Below, piece by piece: positions 1 to 693 of a DNA stretch of 64,000 nucleotides. The stretch lies in NCBI GenBank assembly GCA_002753505.1, contig PEAG01000008.1, forward strand, positions 1-64,000, given 5' to 3'. Numbering within the stretch: the first letter of the stretch is position 1; each line of letters opens with the position of its first letter. A program made the translations under genes and the position numbers. The notes below the pieces were generated by a model that had not been told where the DNA came from, did no database searches, and saw only the letters and a list, made by a program, of their open reading frames with translations. The stretch is from Magnetococcales bacterium HCHbin5 (GTDB lineage Bacteria; Pseudomonadota; Magnetococcia; Magnetococcales; Magnetaquicoccaceae).

Positions 1-120
1 TGTGCGCATGCTGACGAAAGAAGATGGTCGGAGAGCCGTGTACGGGAAAACCGTACGCACGGTTCGATGAGGGGGTACTGGAAACGGGGCGAAAGCCACC
101 GCGCCTGCACTCTACTCTAC
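1..120 (+). mobile_element. Group II intron, 3' end only (domains V and VI)
   Basis: Positions 33-65 fold as group II intron domain V. GAGCCGTG pairs with CACGGTTC, a two-base CG bulge follows, then TACGG pairs with CCGTA around a GAAAA loop. The downstream sequence to about 120 is consistent with domain VI and ends in CTAC, fitting the usual AY 3' end. The catalytic core and any reverse-transcriptase gene would lie left of the window. The sequence right after the presumed splice site is a structured repeat rather than a gene, so the intron sits in intergenic DNA. The loop is five bases instead of the usual GNRA four, and the exact 3' boundary is inferred. Confidence 0.75.
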
Positions 121-121
121 C

Positions 122-232
122 AGAGCCCCTGCATGAACTGCGCGTTTTCCCAAAGCAAATTTTCGCAGAAAATTTGCGCAACGCGCACAAAACCGCCCCG
201 CAGGGGCGACCTTGGGAGGGCGGCAGCCCGAC
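122..232 (-). repeat. Structured intergenic repeat, copy A (inverted)
   Basis: The reverse complement aligns along its whole length with 489-602 as an imperfect inverted copy. Both begin GTCGGGCTGCCGCCCTCC, contain the palindrome GCCCCTGCGGGGC and end near CATGCAGGGGCT. This copy can fold with an outer stem TGCGCGTT/AACGCGCA and an inner stem GCAAATTTT/AAAATTTGC. The other copy has the same architecture with different paired bases. No coding potential is evident. It starts two bases after the presumed end of the group II intron. Confidence 0.75.
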
Positions 233-281
233 TCGCACGGTTATATTAAGGAAGATTTTTGGATAAGAAACCAGAAGCTTC

Positions 282-423
282 GGATGTTCAGTTTTCATGG
301 ATAGGATGTTAAGTTTTCATGGATAGGATGTTCAGTTTTCATGGATAGGATGTTCAGTTTTCATGGATAGGATGTTCAGTTTTCATGGATAGGATGTTAA
401 GTTTTCATGGATAGGATGTTCAG
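282..423 (+). repeat. Tandem array of a 22-bp unit (six copies plus a partial)
   Basis: Six consecutive 22-bp units run from 282 to 413, followed by a 10-base partial unit. Each contains TTTTCATGGATAGGATGTT. Units 2 and 6 carry TTAAG where the others have TTCAG; otherwise they are identical. There are no spacers, so this is not a CRISPR array. The length matches two helical turns, as in plasmid iterons or clustered protein-binding sites, but no rep gene is nearby. The array is AT-rich in a GC-rich setting and lies between the two arms of the structured inverted repeat. Confidence 0.95.
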
Positions 424-488
424 CTTTTTTTGATATAAGGCCAGGAACGGTTTTTTTTCCAAACCCTCCCAGACTTGGCCAGCTCTCG

Positions 489-602
489 GTCGGGCTGCCG
501 CCCTCCAGGAGTGCCCCTGCGGGGCGTTTTGGGCGCGCTGCGCCCATTTGCTGCGCAAATGGGCTTCTGTGAAAGCGCGCCCGTTACATGCAGGGGCTTT
601 GC
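489..602 (+). repeat. Structured intergenic repeat, copy B
   Basis: This is the inverted partner of 122-232. It folds with an outer stem GGGCGCGCT/AGCGCGCCC and an inner stem GCCCATTTG/CAAATGGGC around a CTGCG loop. Compared with copy A both stems have changed sequence on both sides and remain fully paired, which is compensatory change. Its 3' end runs into a nine-base-pair hairpin at 589-609 (TGCAGGGGC, TTT loop, GCCCCTGCA). The role is unknown; it could be RNA or a DNA cruciform. Confidence 0.75.
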
Positions 603-614
603 CCCTGCACCCCA

Positions 615-637
615 CCGGGGACCGTGACGGTCCCCGG
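615..637. terminator. Perfect GC hairpin before the liv genes
   Basis: CCGGGGACCG and CGGTCCCCGG form a perfect ten-base-pair stem around TGA. No T-run follows directly, so it is not a canonical Rho-independent terminator. It may insulate the livG-livF unit from the repeat region. The following ACCCCTGCAATTGTT also occurs at 40718-40732 in another intergenic gap. Confidence 0.4.
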
Positions 638-693
638 ACCCCTGCAATTGTTTTAAAAGATTAATGATGGAACGCTTGACGGAGGGGTGCCCC

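Follow-up and report, generated by a model that had tools for sequence, protein, structure and literature searches.

A large REP/BIME-like palindrome, probably mobile, behind genes in a Magnetococcales genome

The pair of inverted hairpin repeats near the start of the window (the whole 64,000-nt stretch of Magnetococcales bacterium HCHbin5 DNA that was analysed) belongs to a large, dispersed palindromic element. It is best read as a new, large mobile palindrome of REP/BIME-like type that lacks both the REP tags and a flanking RAYT, and to which we would assign a role behind genes. To the full account, a lineage-specific, non-autonomous mobile palindrome of oversized REP/BIME-like build whose stems are kept paired by template switching and which lies behind stop codons, we give a probability of roughly 60%. 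Covariation is regarded as the best evidence that sequence alone can give for functional RNA, and the family is a warning for RNA-discovery pipelines in that it combines strong covariation with marks of DNA-level copying; with over two hundred similar hairpins in one genome, it also offers a natural test bed for template switching versus selection. It further illustrates that a palindromic repeat far larger than REPs can settle at the 3′ ends of genes throughout a bacterial genus, and that a group II intron can use such a repeat as an insertion site.

Arms, copies and spread of the composite

A sequence-only reading of the window had pointed to two inverted copies, at 122–232 and 489–602, with stems that differ in sequence and are nevertheless paired. 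Sequence, alignment and fold confirmed this, the two copies aligning over 115 columns at 81.7% identity (blastn). Their description as two copies of one element holds in so far as they are related inverted repeats, but they are actually the non-identical left and right arms of one composite palindrome, not free copies. The composite spans about 121–660. The location given earlier was right and the extent too short: the right arm runs to about 646–664 with an extra hairpin at 615–637, and a group II intron interrupts the left arm at 120/121, splitting the left end of the composite and displacing the arm's outer part (H5 and half of H4) to another contig. No third copy was found by blastn in the 64,000-nt window, as the same reading had stated. 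Compared to dinucleotide shuffles, the fold of copy 2 is exceptional (z −4.1; hairpin alone, z −4.6), and that of copy 1 is mild (z −1.1; hairpin alone, z −1.8). The features of the locus are collected in Table 1.

Table 1. Features of the composite palindrome and its surroundings, in window positions
Feature	Position	Strand	Sequence or basis
Group II intron 3′ end (domain V and tail)	31–120	+	Rfam RF00029, 51.6 bits
Left arm	121–232	−	blastn against right arm, 81.7%; left-arm family alignments
Left-arm hairpin H3	139–187	−	loop CGCAG on + strand; sequence, fold, covariation
Copy 1 outer stem	139–146 / 180–187		TGCGCGTT / AACGCGCA; fully paired
Copy 1 inner stem	155–163 / 169–177		GCAAATTTT / AAAATTTGC; fully paired
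Spacer between arms	233–482	+	asymmetric, conserved; spacer alignment of 49 copies
Tandem array in spacer, locus-specific	282–428	+	22 bp × 6.6; Tandem Repeats Finder
Right arm	483–646	+	40 full-length matches at 98–100% in own genome
Hairpin H1	492–503	+	GGGC-TGCC-GCCC; sequence, consensus fold
Hairpin H2	513–525	+	GCCCC-TGC-GGGGC; invariant across genus alignment
Right-arm hairpin H3, asymmetric internal loop	531–582	+	fold z −4.57; genus covariation
Copy 2 outer stem	531–538 / 575–582		GGGCGCGC / GCGCGCCC; fully paired
Copy 2 inner stem	542–550 / 556–564		GCCCATTTG / CAAATGGGC; fully paired
Hairpin H4	589–609	+	TGCAGGGGC-TTT-GCCCCTGCA; hairpin type targeted by group II intron
Hairpin H5	615–637	+	CCGGGGACCG-TGA-CGGTCCCCGG
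Element right end	638–664	+	CCCCTGCAATTGTTTTAAAAGATTAA; mirror image of left ends TTTTAAACRATTGCAGGGG; boundary listing
livM–livG split	livG start about 664		livM end at L260

In the whole genome (4.19 Mb in 200 contigs), the 15-base arm motif GGGCTGCCGCCCTCC occurs at 483 places, 240 forward and 243 reverse, compared to 3 and 0 for the reversed control, which implies about 240 composites and, at about 0.5 kb each, an estimated share of roughly 3% of the genome. Directly read sequence amounting to 1.14 Mb (27% of the genome), on which the copy identity classes rest, holds 112 composites. A composite measures about 450–600 bp and consists of a five-hairpin left arm, a spacer and an inverted five-hairpin right arm, each arm being about 165 bp long. 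Almost all are minus-then-plus pairs with a standard motif-to-motif length of 157–163 bp, and wherever the sequence upstream of a right-arm match is long enough, an inverted left arm nearly always precedes it. At least 40 right-arm matches in the genome, among 629 candidates, are 98–100% identical, which points to recent spread or homogenisation. The spacer is expanded in 53 of the 112 composites, owing to tandem repeats that differ between loci; the array unit is 22 bp in the window, 8 bp (GAGCTTTC) in L016, and of the ATTACGCTTT types elsewhere, L011 and L012 being among the loci observed. In the window, too, the array makes the spacer exceed the standard length. Short microsatellites are also present at the outer ends of composites. 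The outer block of H4 and H5 is found alone or in tandem outside composites as well. At about 5150–5480 of L256, four such blocks stand head to tail behind one composite.

GC-rich hairpins are common in intergenic DNA, and the window holds a single pair, as would be expected of chance palindromes in GC-rich, low-complexity intergenic DNA or of a plain tandem duplication. This explanation is refuted by the copy counts (483 versus 3) and is further opposed by the minus-then-plus pairs with their conserved spacer and by the structure conserved throughout the family; we regard it as practically excluded. The plain tandem duplications that the sequence-only reading had named as evidence against itself are thereby rejected.

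Outside its own species, the family was found by blastn at 73–85% identity, with members in 7 of the 7 genomes of the genus and also in G015 and G030. A covariance model, which the same reading had proposed for a search of this genome and its relatives, was built from 31 arms and searched against 200 genomes. Many copies with further compensatory changes were recovered, so that the claim that structure rather than sequence is kept gains support. The model matched 7 of 7 genomes of the genus, 8 of 11 of a second genus in the family, and G018, G025 and G030 of the order, the match in G018 being weak and perhaps due to chance; among the 200 genomes it matched none outside the order. Matches numbered 110 in Ca. 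Magnetaquicoccus UR-1, one of the seven genomes of the genus carrying the family, 21 in WMHbinv6 and 8 in Umea_bin-01869, all three of which carry the family. Distant members retain the outer stem GGCGCGC/GCGCGCC and the asymmetric internal loop but have an entirely different inner stem. No plasmid matched the element, and we found no published account of such repeats in Magnetococcales in the open-access literature.

Insertion sites and placement behind genes

Three gene junctions compared between species gave both filled and empty sites, which indicates that the element inserts and is not fixed at orthologous places. In Ca. M. inordinatus UR-1 and WMHbinv6 the genes livM and livG abut or overlap, whereas here the element and the intron separate them; judged by how the genes are ordered in these relatives, contigs C106 and C69 are probably joined through the missing intron body. 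A second gene pair lies 7 nt apart in the congener G006 and is split by a composite here, and a third overlaps here (TGATG) and is split by the element in G006. The earlier suggestion of a mobile-element end thus came close, the arms being halves of a dispersed element whose presence at a given gene junction varies between species. No target-site duplication was recognised in the flanks compared, which are too diverged. In the 1.14 Mb read, neither the interior of composites nor the surroundings of truncated copies contained a transposase. An autonomous element between the arms was rejected, as unpaired arms proved to be contig ends, nested copies or truncations in the spacer. A RAYT partner was likewise rejected: the genome has only one Y1 transposase (PF01797; L042 1189–1863, 224 residues), without the element around it, and no RAYT flanked by the element occurs in the genome.

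Placement was counted in the 77 composites with a called gene on both sides, the calls coming from a simple codon-usage script and not from a standard annotator. In 72 of these (40 convergent, 32 tandem) the upstream gene reads into the left arm, so that transcription meets the left arm first; the contrary arrangements are three reversed tandem and two divergent pairs. Same-strand pairs are therefore split 32 to 3 (binomial p 4e-7 for 32 of 35), and divergent neighbours, 2 of 77, compare with 13% of background adjacent gene pairs. The first hairpin block lies a median of 36 nt behind the stop codon (minimum 6), and the right-hand neighbours of convergent pairs end equally close, mostly 6–112 nt from the element. 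Orientation in convergent pairs agrees with GC skew in only 20 of 43 cases; control by the replication strand was rejected on this ground, and orientation tracks transcription and not the skew, which served as a proxy for replication.

The bias in orientation suggests that the mRNA of the preceding gene extends through the element, which would then be tolerated or useful in this direction alone, although transcription-coupled insertion, in place of selection on orientation, may also produce it. On our preferred account, a mobile palindrome of REP/BIME-like build, the element spreads through the genome and settles a few tens of bases behind stop codons; transcribed together with the upstream gene, it could act there as a 3′ end or inter-cistron RNA structure. 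We entertain only tentatively an account in which the perfect covariation is made by the mutation process and not by RNA selection, and a mobilising enzyme inserts the element behind stop codons in a transcription-directed manner.

The same placement bears on a cis-acting structured RNA, that is, a 3′ UTR element (bidirectional terminator, mRNA stabiliser or processing site) under selection in the transcript, which we consider rather unlikely. Such an RNA would fit elements that lie tens of nucleotides from stop codons and are oriented with transcription, and convergent genes that mostly end within 6–112 nt on the other side too. It sits badly with insertion between genes that adjoin or overlap in relatives, such as livM and livG, where a strong terminator should not easily survive. 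Moreover, a long T tract immediately behind a hairpin is missing in both reading directions and no canonical terminator site occurs at the arm ends; a terminator scan within the element returned only weak sites (173–191, minus strand). Searches of Rfam by gathering threshold and by E-value gave no match of the element to a curated RNA family.

An origin as a classical MITE, arisen from a DDE transposon by deletion, bounded by long terminal inverted repeats and moved in trans via its TTTTAAACRATTGCAGGGG ends, would account for the mirror-image ends, the high copy number, the near-identical copies and the filled and empty sites. With MITEs and ERIC/RU-type repeats the element shares a non-autonomous, dispersed, intergenic nature and long inverted repeats, and differs from them in its nested hairpins and the compensatory evolution of its stems; a partner transposase and a target duplication were not found. 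Strict placement at stop codons and fixed orientation are unusual for DDE elements. Together with the lack, among the sampled copies, of a full-length relative bearing a transposase and of a recognised target-site duplication, this makes a MITE improbable.

Linkage and footprints of change in the stems

Across 105 left arms, the two variable positions of the inner stem occur as four intact haplotypes, AA/TT (56), CC/GG (33), CA/TG (10) and AC/GT (5), and the stem is broken once (CA/TT), being intact in 104 of 105. Between these states A-T and C-G pairs are exchanged, which takes two transversions and cannot pass through a G-U pair. Linkage in these arms is nearly complete across the inner stem (r2 0.96–1.0), lower between adjacent inner positions (0.47), and 0.002–0.021 from the inner stem to the outer pair about 11 bp away. 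The outer pair is broken in 12 of 105 left arms, as mismatched intermediates, and correction or selection is thus not strict everywhere. In the genus alignment the inner helix has undergone 36 double changes and no one-sided change, with one unpaired cell, and none of 500 shuffles scored as well for the whole structure.

Two arms have turned into perfect palindromes, the short side of the internal loop having been replaced by a copy of the long side (L248/C54 and L156/C38), and in three right arms the loop is inverted. Perfected palindromes and loop inversion are signatures listed for template switching (PMC8794818). Linkage and these footprints support the view that stem covariation arises by DNA template switching inside a hairpin or cruciform, as the patterns suggest: a base change on one side of a stem would be copied to the other during DNA synthesis, and the hairpins would stay perfectly paired while their sequence drifts. 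The element resembles published template-switched hairpins in its perfect double changes, in the passage from imperfect to perfect palindromes and in loop inversion; those cases, in rRNA and microRNA genes, were deduced by comparing species, and compensatory changes combined with loop inversion are described there as extremely rare, whereas here they are seen among about 200 arms within one genome (PMC8794818).

Recombination that exchanges stem blocks was judged unlikely from the linkage, since it needs breakpoints between adjacent bases on both sides of the stem simultaneously. Neighbouring positions are hard to uncouple on both sides by block exchange, but not when a change is copied across the hairpin. 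The inner states of the two arms of a composite are negatively associated (2 of 53 versus 15 of 50, p 4e-4), so correction seems to act within the hairpin and not between arms; templating of the right arm by the left was rejected, as it calls for a positive association. Among the 112 composites of the own genome, AA in both arms was observed in 2, about 9 being expected.

Covarying secondary structure, by which structured cis-regulatory RNAs are recognised, is therefore present in the element, but it is undiagnostic: template switching yields the same pattern, and covariation alone is no proof of RNA function. The structured-RNA explanation would cover fixed orientation and covariation without a special mutation mechanism, and the structure is conserved across genera despite rewritten stems. 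Against it stand the double transversions of the inner stem, almost without intermediates, and the inverted loops. Selection for RNA pairing may act in addition to template switching in keeping the stems paired.

Known repeats and the intron guest

The closest comparison is with REPs and BIMEs of the GTAG and CGTC super-families, which likewise occur in hundreds of copies and as inverted palindrome pairs (PMC3733652, PMC2817692). Like them, the element lies between unidirectional and convergent genes, beside 3′ ends, and convergent REPs are found less than 20 bp from both ORF ends (PMC3733652). In contrast to the 20–40 bp palindromes of REPs and BIMEs, its arms are about 165 bp long with five hairpins; they are non-identical, surround a conserved spacer that holds tandem arrays, and keep a fixed orientation relative to the upstream gene. 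A GTAG tag at the palindrome foot is absent, GTAG occurring in only 7 of 214 arms and, in arms interrupted by the intron, as part of the intron tail. CGTC is also absent from the foot, its one place in the window's element being the H5 loop. Its high copy number, its inverted pairs and its location behind coding regions the element shares with REPs; strict membership was rejected for want of a tag and of a flanking RAYT and because the arms are too long.

The last 120 bases of the group II intron occupy 1–120 of the window, and the intron cuts the left arm in the loop-proximal part of H4. An identical intron 3′ end (121 bases) stands at 17 contig ends (loci L183–L199), the intron body being missing from the assembly, and in nearly all cases read the 3′ exon is an H4-type hairpin. 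On the livM contig the 5′ junction reads GCAGGGG/GTGTGTCC (GCAGGGG/GTGTG). As at the target sites of group IIC introns, which are intrinsic terminators and attC sites (PMC4424553), the intron has repeatedly entered a DNA hairpin, here in 17 copies; unlike there, insertion is at the edge of the H4 stem and loop and not behind the hairpin. Two PF00078 matches were rejected as the intron's reverse transcriptase because they lie in other contexts. One, of roughly 398 residues (L280 1188–2376), is outside a group II intron of this kind, and the other (L281, C151) is near a type I restriction methylase; a role in defence is possible.
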